From a virus, in IMG/VR virus record IMGVR_UViG_3300050821_004597, positions 1 to 57,597 of that record: a stretch of 57,597 nt of DNA. The stretch is one strand, 5' to 3'. Within the stretch, counting starts at the first letter, position 1; each line of letters begins with the position of its first letter. Position numbers and translations under genes: made by a program. Positions 729-54,161 of this stretch are shown one piece after another. The notes under the pieces were generated by a model. It was not told where the DNA came from, did not search any database, and saw only the letters and a list, made by a program, of their open reading frames with translations.

Positions 729-875
729 ATGGAACGAAAGGCTACAAGCTTCCGTCTCAGCACGACAGCGCTCGCACTGATCTGCGCTTTGGCTTCCGCG
801 TTGGGGTTGTCCCAAGTGGCAGTCCTTGAGCAGGCAGTGAGGGAGTTGGCGCGGCGTCACAAAATTCAACCCTAG
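729..875 (+). CDS. Ribbon-helix-helix DNA-binding protein, 48 aa
   Basis: The start FRLSTTALALICALASALGL fits a ribbon-helix-helix fold: a short strand (ATSFRLS), a first helix, the turn LGLSQVAV and a second helix (LEQAVRELARR). Such dimers repress small operons, often their own. The ATG at 729 is chosen because the promoter at 693-722 leaves no room for an upstream start. It is transcribed against the late operon, and its mRNA would run into the pentamer array at 876-1254 and then the 215-residue gene, so it may control that unit. A second leaderless RHH gene is found at 40539. Confidence 0.6.
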   Translation: MERKATSFRLSTTALALICALASALGLSQVAVLEQAVRELARRHKIQP

Positions 876-1254
876 CGGCAGGCCGTGTCGTGGTAGTGCA
901 TGGCATGTTGAGCTATGGCGGGTTGCGGCATGGTTTCAAGAGACGAGTCACGGCGAGCATGGGTCAGGTGCGGCAAGTCGTGGTTTGGTGCGTTAATGTC
1001 CGGCATTGCGAGTTGTGGTCAGGCCGGGCGCGGTACGGTGAGGCGCGGGTATCGCATTCATACTTTTCGAGGCACGGCCTGCTGTGTTGGGGTACGGCCT
1101 GGTCGGTCGAGGCATGGTTAGGCGGGGTGAATTAAGTCTTGGCATTGCGGGATGAGTCGCGGTGTGGCATGGCAATGCTGGGCAAGACAAGAAATGGCTT
1201 GGCGGGCTGGGGTTGGTTCTGGTCTGGTTGGGCAGGATAGGGTAAGGCAAATTC
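876..1254 (+). repeat. Array of degenerate NGGYN pentanucleotides (A)
   Basis: About 75 consecutive five-base units fit NGGYN or close variants (for example tggca, cggta, gggtc, aggtg, tggtt). The register holds from 876 to about 1049, is broken by an irregular stretch near 1050-1068, and resumes shifted by one base to the ribosome site of the next gene. Because five is not a multiple of three, open frames inside it are repeat read-through, not genes. The G-rich strand is the sense strand of the flanking genes. Confidence 0.8.
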
Positions 1255-1263
1255 AAGGAGAGA

Positions 1264-1911
1264 ATGATGGCAAGGAATAACGGAACAGCAACAGCAATCA
1301 GTGAGCCGACGAACGGCGCACGAGAGGCAATCGAAACCGGATTGCCGTTTATCGCACACGTAACCATCGAAGGCACAGCAGACTTGCTGCTGCACGCTTG
1401 GAACTGCGAAGCAGTCCAAGAAAAGGCCGATTCGAAGAAGGGCTCGGCAGCGAAGAAATCAGACAACTTGGAGTCCTACGTGAAGCGCAACGATGACGGC
1501 GTCATCTGCCTGCCATCCGAGTATCTGCGTATGAGCGTCATTGGTGCCGCGAAGTTCCGACAAGACCCGCGTAGCCCGCGCAAGAGCGCGATGGATCTTT
1601 TCAAGGCTGCGGTAGTCTCCCTGCGCCCCTTGTCGCCGATCACTACGGTTGCTGGTGAACTGCCGACGGCTTGGGACTACGAGCATCGATGCCGCGTTCA
1701 AATTCAGAGAAACGGCATCACTCGCTGCCGTCCGGCTTTCCGTGAAGGATGGCGGTGTGAGGTAACGCTCATGGTGAACCTTCCGGAGTACATCAGCCCC
1801 GCCGATTTGCTTGAAGTGGTTGGGTCTGCCGGCCGACTCATTGGCGTTGGTGATTTCCGGCCGACATACGGCAGGTTCAACGTGACGAAGTTTGAGATTC
1901 AGAAAGATTGA
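1264..1911 (+). CDS. Conserved phage protein of unknown function within the pentamer array
   Basis: This 215-residue protein looks like a conserved phage family with no assigned role. The N terminus reads as a beta strand (HVTIEGTADLLLHAWN), the centre carries FRQDPRSPRKSAMDLFK, and the C terminus carries GRLIGVGDFRPTYGRF, a glycine-rich loop. The strand near the start and the glycine-rich loop near the end resemble RAMP (Cas5/6/7-type RNA-binding) proteins, but this is a speculation from pattern only. AAGGAG at 1255-1260 favours the ATG at 1267 over the one at 1264. Pentamer repeats lie on both sides, so protein and repeats probably work together. Confidence 0.7.
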   Translation: MMARNNGTATAISEPTNGAREAIETGLPFIAHVTIEGTADLLLHAWNCEAVQEKADSKKGSAAKKSDNLESYVKRNDDGVICLPSEYLRMSVIGAAKFRQDPRSPRKSAMDLFKAAVVSLRPLSPITTVAGELPTAWDYEHRCRVQIQRNGITRCRPAFREGWRCEVTLMVNLPEYISPADLLEVVGSAGRLIGVGDFRPTYGRFNVTKFEIQKD

Positions 1912-1980
1912 TTTGGGCACGGCTGGTTACGGAAGGGTCAGCCTGGGTGCGGTTGGTTAAGGCAAGGTCCGTTATGGATT
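1912..1980 (+). repeat. NGGYN pentamer array (B), 3' of the 215-aa gene
   Basis: Immediately after the TGA at 1911, about 13 five-base units such as gggca, cggct, ggtta, gggtg, aggca and aggtc continue in one register up to the terminator hairpin. They would form the 3' untranslated part of the mRNA. Sense orientation is the same as in array A. Confidence 0.75.
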
Positions 1981-1989
1981 GCAAGCAAA

Positions 1990-2022
1990 AGAGGCTCGGG
2001 TGACCGAGCCTCTTTCTGTTTC
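1990..2022. terminator. Bidirectional terminator with GNRA tetraloop
   Basis: A perfect ten-pair stem (1990-1999 with 2004-2013) closes a GTGA tetraloop. It is followed by a T-rich run on the plus strand (2014-2022) and by a weaker T-rich run on the minus strand (1989-1981). It sits between converging transcripts, each ending in pentamer repeats. The core GGCTCGG/CCGAGCC recurs in the terminators at 27783 and 30433. Confidence 0.85.
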
Positions 2023-2028
2023 CCATGC

Positions 2029-2104
2029 CATAACTAGCCATGCCCTGCCTGACCGATCCTGACCGGACCCAGCCGAACCTCGACTCGCCTGACCTTGCCA
2101 CACC
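2029..2104 (-). repeat. NGGYN pentamer array (C), minus orientation
   Basis: On the minus strand this reads as about 15 units of the same pattern (tggtg, tggca, aggtc, aggcg, cggct, gggtc). It begins just after the stop of the 137-residue minus gene and ends at the shared terminator. The G-rich strand again coincides with the transcribed sense strand, although the gene runs the other way; orientation follows transcription, not one replication direction. Confidence 0.75.
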
Positions 2105-2112
2105 ATGTACTT

Positions 2113-2526
2113 CTATTCTAGTTCGCCTTCTCGCTCCATGTCACGAGCAATATTCTCAGCAATTTCTGGATAAAGCCAGTGACTTTGATGATAGTTTCCC
2201 TCTGCATCACGAAAAGGCTGATTCATCTGTTCGGCAAGAGACTTGGGCTGAAGTTGAGGTGGTTTATTGTGATCCGCCGAATCCACATTCGCAACAAGCG
2301 ATCGGAATCCGTAGCGCTTTTCGGCATCTTGAAGTTGCTTTAGACTGGTCACTCTTACAGGATTACTGTACTCGTCATGAACGTGATCTAATTCTAGAGA
2401 AGCAAACGGGTTTGCGACGCTTTCGCGCAACCTCGGTGACCGGCAGTTTCGACAGATACGTCGGACGCCCACTGGGGATATCTTGACGGTGTAGCATGGG
2501 CTTTCGTGACCGCAGTCGAGAACCAT
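2113..2526 (-). CDS. Hypothetical protein with N-terminal zinc-binding motif, 137 aa
   Basis: The N terminus holds CGHESPC and CRNC, which could bind one zinc ion; the remainder is polar with no known motif. It is the last gene before the pentamer array C and the terminator, so its mRNA would carry the repeats in the 3' end. It follows the neck-like gene by 9 nt. Function unknown. Confidence 0.6.
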   Translation of the reverse strand: MVLDCGHESPCYTVKISPVGVRRICRNCRSPRLRESVANPFASLELDHVHDEYSNPVRVTSLKQLQDAEKRYGFRSLVANVDSADHNKPPQLQPKSLAEQMNQPFRDAEGNYHQSHWLYPEIAENIARDMEREGELE

Positions 2527-8555: not shown

Positions 8556-8849
8556 TCAATCCTCCCAATCTGGAATTTCGACTGTCTGACCCGCGAGTCT
8601 ATGCGTGCAATCGGAAAGAAATTCGATCTTCCCATCTCGGATAAACGTGTGGCATATGGGCTGTGTCGGATTAGCCCCGCCTACATTGACGAGCACTGAA
8701 GGGGAGAGCGTGGGCGAGTCAAATGACCTGTTCCATTGCCACGCCTTGCCTGACTTATGTCCGTTGACCGGAACCCCATGGTCACCTTCGCATCCCGGGC
8801 AATGCCATGCCACGTACTCTGACTCTATTTCGTGGAATTTAGCCATCAC
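8556..8849 (-). CDS. DUF6527-like phage protein, 97 aa
   Basis: The sequence has the hallmarks of this family: a CxxC pair near residue 17, a segment with SPTLSPSV, then CHTFIRDGKIEFLSDCTH and a C-terminal AGQTVEIPDW. These Cys and His residues probably bind zinc. It overlaps the 3' end of the portal gene by 4 nt (stop and start overlapped), so expression is coupled. Its role in the phage is unknown. Confidence 0.7.
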   Translation of the reverse strand: MMAKFHEIESEYVAWHCPGCEGDHGVPVNGHKSGKAWQWNRSFDSPTLSPSVLVNVGGANPTQPICHTFIRDGKIEFLSDCTHRLAGQTVEIPDWED

Positions 8850-10714
8850 TTCTTTCCTTTCTTGCCAGCCGCCTGCCCGGCCAGCGCCGCCATTGCCAAC
8901 TGCTGGAGTGCCTCCGCCGCCATTTCCTTCTCGTTTTCGGCCAAATCGATATTGGCTCCGGCAGCATTCAGGGCTCTGAGCACGTTCTTTTTGGAAATCA
9001 GTCCGCCGCGCTGAAGCGTCACGGCCAGTTGCGCCCTCTGCTCCCGGTCAAACGACAGCGCCGACCCTGGCCGGATGGAGAACTGGAACTTGCGCACGAA
9101 CTTCTCCGGCAGCATCCCGCCCTGAATCATCGACCCATACATCGGCGAGAAGTCCCACGACGTCATGCCCTTTTCGCCAAGAATCGCCGTCCGATGGCCA
9201 ATTGAATAGAACTGGAGCATGTTCGAGACGACCATCTGGCCGGATCGGTTCATGAAGTTTTCGAGCCGTCTTCCCATCAGCCGGACCATGCCGGAGCGCG
9301 CATTCTGAATCAATTCCATCGTGTCGTGCGACGGAATCTGCTCCTTCTGCGCAGCCGCATCGATCGCCGCTGAACCTGTGGTCTGGTCCATCTCCCGCAT
9401 GAGCATCTGGGTATACCACTGCGCCGCGGTCGGGAACTGAGGTTGCTCGCGGAACTTGGGGCTCTGGCCGCCGGATCGGAGCGGGTTATACTCGATCTTT
9501 CCGCCCGAAATCGTCGTCGACAGATTGTCTAGGTCAGATCGGGACACGGCATCGGTTGGGGTGATGATCGTCGGCGTCAGTCCGGCCTTGATCGTTTCGA
9601 GCATCCCGGCCATGAGGCGGTTCAGGATGTCCTGCGGGCCGATGAGGTTGCCGGTAACAGACATCGACCCCGAAAGCCACGCAGTGCGCAGCGGCAGGAA
9701 CTCGACATACGGCCCTGGCCCCATGTTGTGAAAGTAGGGGTTGCAGGTATCCTCCATGACGCGACCGCCGGCCACCGAAAAGCATCGACCCCTCGGGAAA
9801 AGCGGCATCCCCGGCTCGACCCAGTACGACCAGTTCGCGCCCTTGCGGCCTACCAGTTTTGTCGTCGAAGACTCATTTTTCGCGCCATCCCGCAGCCAGA
9901 AGATGCGCTCCTCGACGGTTGGGTAAAGCGTATCCGTGACCCCAAGACCGCCCTTGACCCCCAAAACCTGCTGCATCTGCGGCGAGAACTTGCCCCATTG
10001 CTCCGACGAAACAGAAGATGGCCGCATCGGACGGAGCGCGCTTGAGTCTGCCCCGGTATCCGGCTTGACCAGTTTGGCCACATCGCCATAGCGGCGCCGC
10101 AGGGCTTCAATCGTCACCTGGCGCGTCTCGATCAGGCATTCGCAGTTCTCGATAGGACCATCGCCGCCGAGTTTGTAAAGTTGAAGCGGGTTGATCGCCA
10201 GCAATTCGACGTCGCCCATGCCGCCCGACCGGTGCGGGTTCCACTGAACCTTGCCGACGCCGTAGGCCAACAGGCCGAAGCCGATGATGTCCTGCAATGC
10301 GTCGTGGTAATCTGGCGTTACCCCCCACGGTTCGAGCAGTTCGCCGATGATTCGCTGGACTTCGGAGTAACCGTCTTTGGTGTCGTATACCTTGATCTGC
10401 GGCTCCGGCTTGCCGTCTGTCAGGAGCGAAACCAGTTCCCAGTATTGGCGGAACATGCGGTTCGTGACGGGCCGGGAATTGCCGTAGGCGGTCGGTCTGG
10501 CGGGCCACTGGCTGCCGGAAAGATACTGGACGATTCGGGGGATGAGCTTGGAATAAGGCTGCTGACCCTGCTTTTCCTTCGCCTGAGAGAATGCCGTGTC
10601 GGACCACTGGACTACGTCGCGCTCAAGCCGGTCCCAAGGAAGCGGCAAGTCGCGCGTCATGCGCTCCGGGGGTGGAGGCTGGTTGCCGGGGCGGAGAATT
10701 GCGGGAGTCGCCAT
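8846..10714 (-). CDS. Portal protein, 622 aa
   Basis: The portal forms the twelve-subunit ring at one capsid vertex through which the terminase motor pumps DNA. This 622-residue protein has the expected place between the large terminase and the scaffold, the expected size, and a clip/stem-type central part (YQDIIGFGLLAYG-like section, then GPYVEFLPLRTAW and MLETIKAGLTPTI). The C-terminal part is helical (ALNAAGANIDLAENEKEMAAEAL). No obvious Shine-Dalgarno precedes the ATG at 10714. Confidence 0.75.
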   Translation of the reverse strand: MATPAILRPGNQPPPPERMTRDLPLPWDRLERDVVQWSDTAFSQAKEKQGQQPYSKLIPRIVQYLSGSQWPARPTAYGNSRPVTNRMFRQYWELVSLLTDGKPEPQIKVYDTKDGYSEVQRIIGELLEPWGVTPDYHDALQDIIGFGLLAYGVGKVQWNPHRSGGMGDVELLAINPLQLYKLGGDGPIENCECLIETRQVTIEALRRRYGDVAKLVKPDTGADSSALRPMRPSSVSSEQWGKFSPQMQQVLGVKGGLGVTDTLYPTVEERIFWLRDGAKNESSTTKLVGRKGANWSYWVEPGMPLFPRGRCFSVAGGRVMEDTCNPYFHNMGPGPYVEFLPLRTAWLSGSMSVTGNLIGPQDILNRLMAGMLETIKAGLTPTIITPTDAVSRSDLDNLSTTISGGKIEYNPLRSGGQSPKFREQPQFPTAAQWYTQMLMREMDQTTGSAAIDAAAQKEQIPSHDTMELIQNARSGMVRLMGRRLENFMNRSGQMVVSNMLQFYSIGHRTAILGEKGMTSWDFSPMYGSMIQGGMLPEKFVRKFQFSIRPGSALSFDREQRAQLAVTLQRGGLISKKNVLRALNAAGANIDLAENEKEMAAEALQQLAMAALAGQAAGKKGKK

Positions 10715-20335: not shown

Positions 20336-20470
20336 ACCCCACTTCTTTAGTAGTCCCTTTCTTTACCCCACCGCTGCCGCCCCAGCCAGTCCTGCCTCAG
20401 ATTCCCCGTAGATGCTAAGGATGTTCGCTCGTCCTGCGAGCCTAGACTGTGAGCGGCAACGGCAAGCTTG
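20336..20470. other. Non-coding gap before the glycosyltransferase stop
   Basis: These 135 bases contain a short perfect hairpin (GCTCG and CGAGC near 20429-20443) and no open frame with a ribosome site. The break in an otherwise overlapping operon suggests an RNA-processing site or weak terminator; no T run is visible. Confidence 0.35.
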
Positions 20471-24202: not shown

Positions 24203-25975
24203 TCAATACCCCAACATCTGCTGCTGGCCACCGGGCATCACCGGCACCAGCGACTTGCGTACCTCGCTCGCCGCCTCAACGTCATCGGCCACGATAGCCT
24301 CATTGGTCAGCAAGAGACCTGCGATGCTGCCAGCCGCCTGCAATGCCGTGCGGGTCACGCGGGCTGGGTCTATGACGCCAGACTTGAGTAGGTCTTCAAA
24401 CTCTCGCGTCGCGGCGTTGTAGCCGAAGAAGTTGTTTTGGCGAAGCTCCAACGGAATATCCGTCTTGACTGACCTGACGTGCGCCTTTCGCCTACGCAAC
24501 TCCGCCACGATCTCGCCACCTTCGCCGCCAGCATTCGACACGATCCGCTTCAACGGCGCTTCGCAAGCCTTCGCAACGATCCTGAATCCGGCCAACTCAT
24601 CCTCGTTCGCCACATTCATCGCCGCTTGCATGAACGCATGCGAGTCCACCGCCAGGATCAGCGCGGTCCCGCCGCCAGGCACGATACCCTCAGCGACAGC
24701 CGCCCGGGTCGCGTACATCGCATCCTCGGCGCGATCCTTCCGCTCTTTCATCTCGGCTTCCGTCTGGCCGCCAACCTTGACGACTGCAACCCCGCCCGTC
24801 AACTTCGCCAGCCGCTCGGTCAGACGCTCCCGGTCGTAGTCCGAAGTCGTCCGCTCGATCTGAGCACGAAGGTCATTGCGCCGGCCATTCAGGATCGTTT
24901 CGTCGCCCATGCCGCCAACGATGGTCGTGTCATCCTTCGTCACCGTCACCCGCTTCGCCCGGCCCAGCATCCCGAGGGTTACCGACTCCATCTTGATTCC
25001 GAGGTCGGGGCTGATGACGGTTGCGCCGGTCAGGACGGCCAAGTCATCGAGCAACGCCTTCTTGCGGTCGCCGAAGCCGGGGGTCTTGACTGCGATCGAT
25101 CGGAACCGGCCCTGCATCCGGTTGACCACCAGCCATGCGAGCGCGGACTCGGCGATGTCTTCGGCGATCACGACAAGGCTTCCGCCCGCCTGATGCACGA
25201 TGGTCGCTACCGGCGTAAGGTCGGTGTGGTAGACGAGGCGCTTTTCGTGGAGCAGCAGGAACACCGGCGCAGAATCATCCCCGGAAAGCATCGCCTCCAT
25301 CCGCTCGCCATCGGTGATGAAGTAAGGCGACAGATACCCCTGATTGAACTGCATGCCCTCGACCACATCGAGCGTCGTCTCCATCGACTGCGATTCCTCG
25401 ACCGTGACCGTGCCGTCCTTGCCGACCTGCGCAATGGCCGCGGCGATCATGTTTCCGATGTCGGGGTCGGAGTTGGCCGACAGCGTGCCGACCTGGGCGA
25501 TGACATTGGGGTCTTCGACGGGCAGGATCAGCGGCGCCAAAGTTCCGCCCTGGTAGTTGCCCTTCTCGTCCTTGGTCCCGACGATGGCCGTGATGGCTGC
25601 ATCGATGCCGCGCTTGAGGGCGACAGGATTCGCACCTGCCGCAACCTGCCGGACGCCGCCTTTGTAGATGGCCTGGGCGAGGACAGTTGCGGTCGTGGTG
25701 CCGTCGCCGGCGGAGTCACCGGCCCTTCGTGCAACCGAAATGACGAGTTGTGCGGCGAGATTGGCGATTGGGTCGGAGAGGGCGATCTTCTTGGCTACCG
25801 TCACACCGTCGCGCGTGGACCTGCCTTCCCGGAACGGGCCTTCATCCAGCAGGACATTCCTTCCGCCCGGCCCCAACGTTATCGAAACCACATCGGCTAC
25901 GGCGTCGACGCCCTTCATGATGGCGGCGTGGCATTCATCTTTGGTGACAATCTGCTTTGGGTTCAAACTCGGCAT
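24203..25975 (-). CDS. groEL: GroEL-like chaperonin (phage-encoded), 590 aa
   Basis: This 590-residue protein has the group I chaperonin layout: ITLGPGGRNVLLDEGPF with the Asp equivalent to Asp52, the nucleotide loop GDSAGDGTTTATVLAQAI with the Asp87 equivalent, and EDAMYATRAAVAEGIVPGGG with the Asp398 equivalent. It is about 40 residues longer than E. coli GroEL (548), and lacks the GGM tail, ending MPGGQQQMLGY. It would fold phage head proteins, as Hsp60-dependent capsids need. Its start overlaps the upstream stop (TAATG). A GroES-like gene lies 1.2 kb upstream in the same transcript. Confidence 0.9.
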   Translation of the reverse strand: MPSLNPKQIVTKDECHAAIMKGVDAVADVVSITLGPGGRNVLLDEGPFREGRSTRDGVTVAKKIALSDPIANLAAQLVISVARRAGDSAGDGTTTATVLAQAIYKGGVRQVAAGANPVALKRGIDAAITAIVGTKDEKGNYQGGTLAPLILPVEDPNVIAQVGTLSANSDPDIGNMIAAAIAQVGKDGTVTVEESQSMETTLDVVEGMQFNQGYLSPYFITDGERMEAMLSGDDSAPVFLLLHEKRLVYHTDLTPVATIVHQAGGSLVVIAEDIAESALAWLVVNRMQGRFRSIAVKTPGFGDRKKALLDDLAVLTGATVISPDLGIKMESVTLGMLGRAKRVTVTKDDTTIVGGMGDETILNGRRNDLRAQIERTTSDYDRERLTERLAKLTGGVAVVKVGGQTEAEMKERKDRAEDAMYATRAAVAEGIVPGGGTALILAVDSHAFMQAAMNVANEDELAGFRIVAKACEAPLKRIVSNAGGEGGEIVAELRRRKAHVRSVKTDIPLELRQNNFFGYNAATREFEDLLKSGVIDPARVTRTALQAAGSIAGLLLTNEAIVADDVEAASEVRKSLVPVMPGGQQQMLGY

Positions 25976-51714: not shown

Positions 51715-54161
51715 CGAGCTACGAAGAGTTTTTGGAGCAGAAGAGATTCACGCCGAAGGTTGCGGGGTTGACTGAAATCCCGCCGCTCAACTCATTGATG
51801 TTTCCGCACCAACACGATACATGCGCTTGGGCACTGCGGCTGGGACGCTCTGCGGCATTCTTAGGCACCGGCATGGGGAAATCATTCATCGAGTTAGAAT
51901 GGGCGCGTGTCGTGGCTGAAAAGACTGCGATGCCAGTTCTATTGCTCGCTCCGTTGGCCGTGGCGCACCAGATGATTACCGAGGCTGCCAAGTTCGGCAT
52001 CCGGGCAAAGTATTTCAAAGAGGCCAAAGGATTCGGAGACGAGCACATTATCGTCACCAACTATGAGCGCATGGATAATTTCGACGCCGAAGATTTCTCC
52101 GGAGTAGTATGCGACGAAAGTTCGATATTGAAGGCCATGGACGGAAAGACGCGGACTAGACTGATTGAGAAGTTCCGCGATACGCCATACAAACTCGCAG
52201 CGACGGCTACACCGGCGCCAAACGATCACATGGAACTCGGAAACCATGCCGAGTTTCTAGGTGTAATGACAGCCACGGAGATGCTGTCTATGTTCTTTGT
52301 CCACGATGGGGGCGAGACGCAGAAGTGGAGACTCAAGGGTCATGCGCGCAAGGAGTTCTGGAAGTGGGTATGCTCATGGGCTGTCAATATCAGAAAGCCG
52401 TCCGATGCGGGATACGATGACGGGCCATTCATCCTACCCCCATTGCATTATCATGAGCACATTGTTCAAGTGGATACGCCGAGCGAGGGGATGTTGTTCG
52501 CGATGCCTGCCGAGTCGTTGAGTGAAAGGCTCGCGGCCAGGCGTTCCACTGTTGATGATCGCGTTGCCCAGGTCCAAAGGATCATTGCCGCAGAATCGGA
52601 TGAAACGTGGCTGGTCTGGTGCAACTTAAATCGAGAGTCAGAGATGATCGCGGCTACGGTTCCGAAAGCAGTAGAGTTGACGGGCTCTGATTCCGCAGAT
52701 GACAAGGCGAATTTATCGCAACAGTTCGCCGTCGGCCTGATTCCTGTCATGGTTTCTAAGGCTTCGATTCTTGGTTTTGGAGTCAATTATCAGGCTTGCT
52801 CTCACCAGATATTCGCTGGCGTCAATGATTCATGGGAGCAATTCTTTCAGGCAATCCGGAGGTCATGGCGATTTGGCCAGACTAGGCCGGTCCACATCCA
52901 CATCATCGCCGCATCGACCGAAGGCAATGTGCTGGAGAATCTAAAGCGGAAGGAAAGAGAGGCTGAGGAAATGGCTGAGGAAATGTTGGAAAACATGATG
53001 GATATGACGCGGATGAATCTGAAGGGGACGAGCAGAACGGAAGTTTCATACGAGCGCCAAGTGAAGAAAGCCGACAATTGGGAAATGCATCTTGCCGACT
53101 GCGTAGATTTAGCAAAAGAGATTCCGAACGATAGTATTCACTACTCAATAACAAGTTTGCCGTTCGACAGCCTGTACACGTACAGCGCCTCTGATCGCGA
53201 CATGGGCAACTCCAAAAACTCCGATGAATTCTGGGAGCACTACAAGTTTCTTGTCGATGAAGAGTCGCGAATCATGATGCCTGGGCGTCTCCTCTCCGTT
53301 CATTGCATGAACATGCCTACGTCGAAGACTCGCGACGGATTTATTGGTATCCGCGACTTTCGTGGTGAGATTATCCGGGCCTATTGCGGATCGGAAGCGG
53401 CAACTTTGTACGACGCAAGGAAAGTTCTGGATCGGCTGGGCTACGACACGACAGAAATCGATGCAGCGCTGAAGGACGCTTCTCTGCGAAACGGAGGCTT
53501 TATTTATCACTCCGAGGTTTGCATCTGGAAAGATCCAGTCATCGCTATGCAGCGCACGAAAGCTATCGGTCTGCTCCACAAGCAGATTAATAAAGACTCG
53601 TGCATGAGCCGCCAGGGGGTTCCCGAATACCTCATCACCTTCCGCAAGCCTGGAGACAATCCTGAGCGAGTGGCCGGGCTGTTGCGTGATTACTACGGAG
53701 AATATGGAACGGGTCCAACTGCGGACGGAGAAGTACGCAGGAGCATCGAGATATGGCAGCGGTACGCCTCTCCGGTATGGATGGATATCAACCCGTCAGA
53801 TACGCTTCAGTATCGATCGGCGAGGGAGCATGAGGATGAGAGACACATTTGTCCTCTCGCCTTAACTGTGATCCGTAGGGGAGTGCAACTCTGGAGCAAC
53901 CCCGGAGATGTTGTCTACGATCCATTTACGGGCATCGGCTCAACCGGCTTCGTGGCCTTGGAGATGGGCCGCCGCTTCGTTGGATCGGAACTCAAGAAAT
54001 CGTATTTCGAGCAGAGCGCTAGAAATCTCGGAAACGCTTTAAGCGCGTCACGCGGCTTGTTCGCTGGAGTGGCCGAGTTACCAGAAGACCAAGACGAAGA
54101 CCTCGCCGTCGCCAGCGAACCCGAGCCCGTCCCCGCTGAACCTTCCACATCCGACTGGTAG
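51711..54161 (+). CDS. SF2 helicase fused to DNA methyltransferase, 816 aa
   Basis: Residues 1-430 form an SF2/SNF2-like helicase: FLGTGMGKSFIELEWA (motif I), VVCDESSILKAMDG (motif II), AATATPAPND (motif III) and FFQAIRRSWRFGQTRPV (motif VI). The C-terminal half is an amino-methyltransferase: TSLPFDSLYTYS replaces the usual SPPY/DPPY motif, and VVYDPFTGIGSTGFVALEMG is motif I. The order makes a beta-class enzyme. It would methylate phage DNA, with the helicase moving along it; a Pro to Leu change in the catalytic motif is unusual. Confidence 0.75.
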   Translation: MTSYEEFLEQKRFTPKVAGLTEIPPLNSLMFPHQHDTCAWALRLGRSAAFLGTGMGKSFIELEWARVVAEKTAMPVLLLAPLAVAHQMITEAAKFGIRAKYFKEAKGFGDEHIIVTNYERMDNFDAEDFSGVVCDESSILKAMDGKTRTRLIEKFRDTPYKLAATATPAPNDHMELGNHAEFLGVMTATEMLSMFFVHDGGETQKWRLKGHARKEFWKWVCSWAVNIRKPSDAGYDDGPFILPPLHYHEHIVQVDTPSEGMLFAMPAESLSERLAARRSTVDDRVAQVQRIIAAESDETWLVWCNLNRESEMIAATVPKAVELTGSDSADDKANLSQQFAVGLIPVMVSKASILGFGVNYQACSHQIFAGVNDSWEQFFQAIRRSWRFGQTRPVHIHIIAASTEGNVLENLKRKEREAEEMAEEMLENMMDMTRMNLKGTSRTEVSYERQVKKADNWEMHLADCVDLAKEIPNDSIHYSITSLPFDSLYTYSASDRDMGNSKNSDEFWEHYKFLVDEESRIMMPGRLLSVHCMNMPTSKTRDGFIGIRDFRGEIIRAYCGSEAATLYDARKVLDRLGYDTTEIDAALKDASLRNGGFIYHSEVCIWKDPVIAMQRTKAIGLLHKQINKDSCMSRQGVPEYLITFRKPGDNPERVAGLLRDYYGEYGTGPTADGEVRRSIEIWQRYASPVWMDINPSDTLQYRSAREHEDERHICPLALTVIRRGVQLWSNPGDVVYDPFTGIGSTGFVALEMGRRFVGSELKKSYFEQSARNLGNALSASRGLFAGVAELPEDQDEDLAVASEPEPVPAEPSTSDW

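Follow-up and report, generated by a model that had tools for sequence, protein, structure and literature searches.

A probable VIPR locus with a Cas7-like Vipr and GGYNN guide arrays in a soil phage

The left end of a 57.6-kb virus record (IMG/VR IMGVR_UViG_3300050821_004597; the whole stretch of 57,597 nucleotides analysed here is called the window) very probably carries the VIPR system of a soil phage, in which a Cas7-like Vipr protein and NN-guided vrRNAs would act against competing DNA. VIPR (Viral Interference Programmable Repeat) itself had already been published months before, in a bioRxiv preprint (PMC13142463, April/June 2026), and the locus adds a soil-phage example; we found no other paper on VIPR. 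As described in those parts of the preprint drawn on here, a VIPR consists of the Vipr protein and of vrRNAs, each with 9-16 YNNGG repeats and a 3′ tail of conserved secondary structure, that flank vipr; the NN dinucleotides recognise target DNA, one target base, usually the wobble position, being skipped per unit; there are seven types, and in some of them the vap (vipr-accessory) gene encodes a DNA-binding protein; and VIPRs are mostly phage-encoded, with competing phages, satellites, and other VIPRs as their targets. For the SUSP1/P. fulva VIPR, the same parts report RNA production, RNP formation, DNA binding, repression, and phage interference as demonstrated, and altering the NN dinucleotides alone redirects SUSP1 repression to a new DNA target (PMC13142463).

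The window encodes terminase, portal, groEL, RecT-like, and DnaB-like genes, and is therefore phage DNA. A tblastn search of 50,697 phage records found no match for the portal protein (8846-10714), and the lineage is thus probably one without sequenced isolates. The GroEL-like chaperonin at 24203-25975 is full-length (phrog_5725, E 1e-138).

The vipr gene, its arrays, and their signals

The gene between the arrays, vipr (1264-1911, plus strand), encodes 215 amino acid residues assigned to phrog_4652, a family of function unknown, and a Pfam search of the protein returned no credible family. A profile built from 67 homologues has a single PDB match, the SUSP1 Vipr 36pp (E 1.8e-11), in an alignment that spans the core of the fold and takes in the G-loop motif GVGD[FW]RP..GRF; residues G190, G194, D197, R199, P200, G203, and R204 are invariant in all 67. 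The AlphaFold model (pLDDT 88) finds type VII Cas7 as its top Foldseek match (E 3e-7) and Csm3 as its top VIA-align match (Z 12.3 over 162 residues), in keeping with the original prediction of a RAMP-like, Cas7-related protein. Judged by profile and predicted fold, the gene product is a Vipr, a small single-RRM RAMP with a G-loop, homologous to that of SUSP1.

Three arrays of period 5 surround this gene, at 877-1250 (A, plus strand), 1916-1980 (B, plus strand), and 2104-2025 (C, minus strand), and their repeat unit is GGY followed by two free bases, NN. Array A, the upstream vrRNA region, falls into two phase blocks, 877-1046 with 34 GGYNN units of which 19 are perfect, and 1071-1250 with 36 units of which 22 are perfect, separated by a 24-nt interruption (1047-1070); array B, the downstream vrRNA, has 13 units (7 perfect), and array C, the convergent vrRNA, has 16 (13 perfect). 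Over 12 units the GG-phase scores are 8-9 for A, 8 for B, and 11 for C, whereas the highest scores in 30 Markov-shuffled versions of the window are 5-8. Five consecutive GGYNN units, with up to 2 mismatches allowed, are matched 59 times in the window where 3.75 +/- 2.13 matches are expected, no more than 11 occur in any of 100 shuffles, and 52 of the 59 lie within arrays A-C. The three arrays are thus where they had been predicted to be, save that C extends slightly further than had been thought, and their five-base period is far beyond chance; it is less strict in A and B than had been claimed, since only 54-61% of the units in these two arrays have a perfect GGY, and some of their units may therefore be decayed.

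The repeats cannot derive from codons, given their period of 5 and intergenic position, nor from tandem duplication, since Tandem Repeats Finder reports no array at the locus and the NN are diverse. Two further array-like signals on the minus strand (20348-20416 and 54093-54161) proved in a scan for the GGY pattern not to be GGY arrays.

Arrays B and C lead into the same stable hairpin, a putative bidirectional terminator at 1988-2015, with 12 bp and T-runs on either side, which would form the 3′ end of vrRNA B on the plus strand and of vrRNA C on the minus strand; folded as RNA it reaches -24.3 and -22.4 kcal/mol on the two strands, with z-scores of -4.8 and -3.5, respectively. The common terminator had been predicted with a GNRA loop, which holds for B (GUGA) but not for C, whose strand reads UCAC. 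Array A has no clear tail; that of SUSP1 is a pseudoknot tail. An Rfam search gave nothing near the gathering score in the window and nothing at the gathering score in ten relatives, which therefore carry no hammerhead ribozyme there.

A candidate sigma-70-like promoter for the operon, TTGACA-18-TACATT, lies at 693-722 on the plus strand and matches at 10 of 12 positions; since chance alone would place 1.2 such sites in the region, the match is weak by itself, but in the close relative L005 the equivalent position holds both TTGACA and a TATACA-like box. Between this site and array A lies a 48-aa gene of ribbon-helix-helix (CopG-like) type (729-875, plus strand; Pfam RHH_1, E 0.019, under the curated cut-off). 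Homologues are found directly upstream of the array or vipr in five relatives (L002, L004, L005, L052, and L054), and in L005 the order promoter, CopG-like gene, vipr, array, hairpin matches that of the window. The 48-aa protein is a candidate Vipr-accessory protein (vap) or autoregulator by its position, and we infer that its gene supplies the accessory protein of the locus; neither the window nor the IMG/VR relatives examined contain a homologue of the gene found at the vap1 position of SUSP1-like phages.

Array C is antisense to vipr and adjoins, on the 3′ side, a minus-strand ORF (2113-2526) of 137 aa, which belongs to no family and has credible relatives, among the loci, only in L001, the same phage. 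A second sigma-70-like site, GTGACA-18-TAGAAT (2115-2144, minus strand), likewise weak by itself with a chance expectation of 1.2 per region, ends 11 nt ahead of array C, so that transcription would start at C; array C may accordingly have its own promoter and, instead of being a 3′ UTR, make a convergent vrRNA independently.

Arrays and guides among relatives

The original prediction proposed a search of homologous genes for flanking arrays in sense orientation. At a loose threshold arrays are present in 77 of the 80 homologous loci from IMG/VR and absent from three (L005, L032, and L033), although L005 has a degenerate array downstream. Under stricter criteria, with the array at most 400 nt away, arrays are found upstream of vipr in 49 of 73 loci and downstream in 55 of 74, and the downstream arrays of relatives often begin no more than 10 nt past the stop codon. 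Orientation is not random: array and vipr share a strand in 282 of 287 arrays and differ in 5, and among 50 whole records, which occur in both orientations, the 37 with perfect 6-unit arrays all have them on a single strand. The claim of sense orientation thus holds for the relatives with respect to vipr, but not for array C of the window. The idea that the arrays act as RNA together with the adjacent protein is supported. As a positive control, the detector recovered the four arrays of SUSP1, one upstream and three downstream, matching the publication; its last downstream vrRNAs, with scores of 7-8, were found to be imperfect too.

Several loci depart from the common layout. In L032 (3594-3700), and also in L033, no GG-phase array is present, and a G/T-rich tract after vipr may follow another repeat consensus. 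L073 (3648-4071) has five short GGYNN arrays separated by four near-identical 52-nt structured tails (GGGCCTTATTGC..GGGCGG..CCGCC..TGCAAT), an evident series of vrRNAs whose tails are constant and have no Rfam match. Four loci (L040, 2684-2748; L046, 634-698; L051, 3170-3234; L058, 3354-3418) contain a 13-unit GGYNN array inside the vipr coding sequence, with the identical NN series AA GG AC AA GC AA AA AC GA AG GT GC GA; their Vipr matches are longer, about 220-235 aa, so that a vrRNA-like array is embedded in the protein gene. On the 142.8-kb contig of L003 a perfect GGYNN array (L202:13170-13222; G001:C1:53170-53222) stands about 35 kb from vipr (at about 88 kb), which suggests that this vrRNA and its protein are encoded far apart. 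Finally, the Vipr match in Staphylococcus phage SA1 (GU169904.1, 91703-91924) resembles that of Felix-O1-like enterobacterial phages, and the SA1 record is possibly mislabelled or mixed.

The code was examined by comparing all 10-unit windows of 416 arrays, with skips of 0 to 3 bases, to 2.9 Mb of loci in which arrays were masked, counting as targets those with at least 19 of 20 NN bases matched. A skip of 1 gave 72 distinct targets, and skips of 0, 2, and 3 gave 1, 3, and 1, respectively; three shuffles of the guides gave 0, 2, and 1, and an earlier pass over fewer loci had given 85 matches against none. The count of 72 is slightly inflated, a few matches being circular because they fall on loci fetched with guides of the window as bait; with bait-fetched loci excluded, skip-1 targets still exceed the controls more than tenfold.

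Two of the guides, CG CC TA GT GG CG AA TC GC AG in L040 and AA CT CC TA GT GG CG AA TC CC in L068, correspond, with wobble bases skipped, to the antisense of the codons for [GA]DFRPTYGR, the Vipr G-loop, and match the vipr genes of dozens of other elements. The vipr of the window is one predicted target, its codons for the G-loop GDFRPTYGRF (1849-1877, minus strand) being matched by the L068 vrRNA in 10 of 10 units with a 1-nt skip. This convergence of guides on universal G-loop codons was seen in the present analysis and accords with the VIPR-on-VIPR targeting described in the preprint. Against their own vipr genes the L040 and L068 guides score 16/20 and 18/20, compared with 19-20 for many other vipr genes, a difference that is suggestive only of carriers of anti-vipr guides avoiding self-targeting.

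Other guides find other genes: one from L099 fits a neighbour of vipr in related Phycisphaerales elements (28 of 30 NN bases, 15 units), and one from L103 fits, at 23 of 24, the LTEKPVELAVRA stretch of a phage DNA methyltransferase that was recognised by eye through its motifs. All targets inspected are coding sequence, and the skipped base, as read from the codons, is the wobble position in both the vipr and the methyltransferase targets. Judged by these matches, which fit no other reading, the NN dinucleotides of the clade's relatives specify DNA targets with a 1-nt skip.

For the window itself, array B decodes to AC TG AC AG CA TG GC TG AA AA CC AT TT and array C to GT AA CA GA GA TC TG CC CA TC CA AG AT TA AT AT. 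Scans of IMG/VR with exact cores, 8 or 9 units long and taken from A, B, and C, returned no credible target; each scan gave 0-12 core matches, about the number expected by chance, and none extends convincingly past the core. Matches of at least 18/20 for guides of the window were set aside as circular, since they come from loci fetched by those same guides.

Comparison with known systems and competing explanations

The nearest known system is the VIPR of Escherichia phage SUSP1 (type II; PDB 36pp, PMC13142463), with which the locus shares a homologous RAMP having the same G-loop motif, phage-encoded GGY/NN arrays on the vipr strand both upstream and downstream, a length of 13-16 units (B and C), and, by prediction for B and C, a structured 3′ end. 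It differs from SUSP1 in its upstream array, which is longer, more degenerate, and in two phases (34 + 36 units); in the terminator hairpin that its downstream vrRNA has in common with a convergent opposite-strand vrRNA; in the 48-aa CopG-like gene upstream, with no vap1 homologue downstream; and in belonging to a G+C-rich phage without sequenced relatives. The Cas7 proteins of class 1 CRISPR (Csm3 of type III-A, and type VII Cas7) resemble the window's Vipr in fold (VIA Z of about 12 over about 160 residues) and, presumably, in oligomerising at periodic steps along a guide RNA, but sequence identity is about 10%, the window has no CRISPR repeats and no other Cas genes were seen in it, and its period is 5 nt and marked in the sequence, whereas that of Cas7 is 6 nt without a marker. 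A class 1 CRISPR-Cas locus does not fit: Tandem Repeats Finder reports no identical-unit array around the gene (short arrays elsewhere only), and the neighbours tested are the CopG-like protein and phage structural genes.

The sizes of arrays B and C (13 and 16 units) fit the published vrRNA range of 9-16 and therefore count in favour of VIPR. We infer that the locus is expressed and active. An operon running from the promoter through the CopG-like gene, array A, vipr, and array B to the terminator would make vrRNAs, as would the convergent transcription unit of array C; Vipr, as a Cas7-like RAMP, would oligomerise along each vrRNA, gripping every GGY and presenting every NN; and the NN dinucleotides would pair with double-stranded DNA, one target base being skipped per unit, thereby targeting the DNA of competing phages or satellites and blocking its transcription.

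Leader sequences bound by TRAP (trp RNA-binding attenuation protein) contain repeats of a triplet plus a 2-3 nt spacer. The original prediction saw in the arrays a binding array, sponge, or scaffold, and this triplet-plus-spacer geometry, together with the position of the arrays directly before the vipr start codon and after the stop codon, would suit a protein that binds GGY in the leader and trailer of its own mRNA, with the NN as mere spacers, and so autoregulates or sequesters a factor. We consider this very improbable because of the skip-1 target statistics: the order of the NN matches G-loop codons, a methyltransferase, and a neighbouring gene far above shuffled guides, and the portion of the preprint drawn on here shows RNA-guided DNA binding for the family (PMC13142463), so that the repeats are better read as guide RNAs. 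TRAP also has a different fold and spacers without information, unlike NN that encode targets, and the arrays extend far beyond an 11-mer ring. Autoregulation may nevertheless occur on top of guiding. Less probable still, indeed scarcely credible, is a DNA element lying beside the gene by chance, such as a G-quadruplex, an origin, or a packaging or single-strand-binding site; a GG every five bases could give two-tier quadruplexes, and the arrays are intergenic, but their strand tracks vipr transcription in nearly all the arrays compared, including records of both orientations, and a structural DNA element needs neither the conserved Y nor target information in the NN.

A variant compatible with the VIPR reading, unlikely though well ahead of the foregoing, is that the system is partly decayed, with vipr intact, A and B relics, and only C a live guide. 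The share of perfect GGY units is lower in A (19/34 and 22/36) and B (7/13) than in C (13/16), guides with identified targets have 10/10 or 13/15 perfect units, and the IMG/VR scans gave no target for any guide of the window; yet runs of 34 and 36 units keep both the five-base phase and the bias towards G, one G and the Y survive in most of the degenerate units, and the last downstream vrRNAs of SUSP1 are likewise imperfect.

Implications for VIPR diversity

Taking the locus as a VIPR, we tentatively raise a broader proposal, which seems to us rather unlikely as it stands: that its clade is a VIPR variant outside the published types, with a CopG-like upstream accessory, upstream arrays that are long and in two phases, and a convergent vrRNA on the opposite strand whose 3′ end is a common palindromic terminator, and that some phages of the wider family possess near-universal anti-VIPR guides directed at those G-loop codons that are invariant among the vipr genes of rivals. 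If so, wobble skipping in such guides would leave rivals no escape by synonymous change. With guides directed at the best conserved codons in the vipr genes of rivals, the arms race among VIPR carriers becomes testable from sequence.

VIPR is a minimal, PAM-free form of RNA-guided DNA recognition and a proposed relative or forerunner of CRISPR. Independent uncultivated phages now support its repeat grammar and 1-nt-skip code, by sequence alone, and the arrangement found in the window, with convergent vrRNAs on one terminator and a CopG-like upstream gene, could inform VIPR typing.
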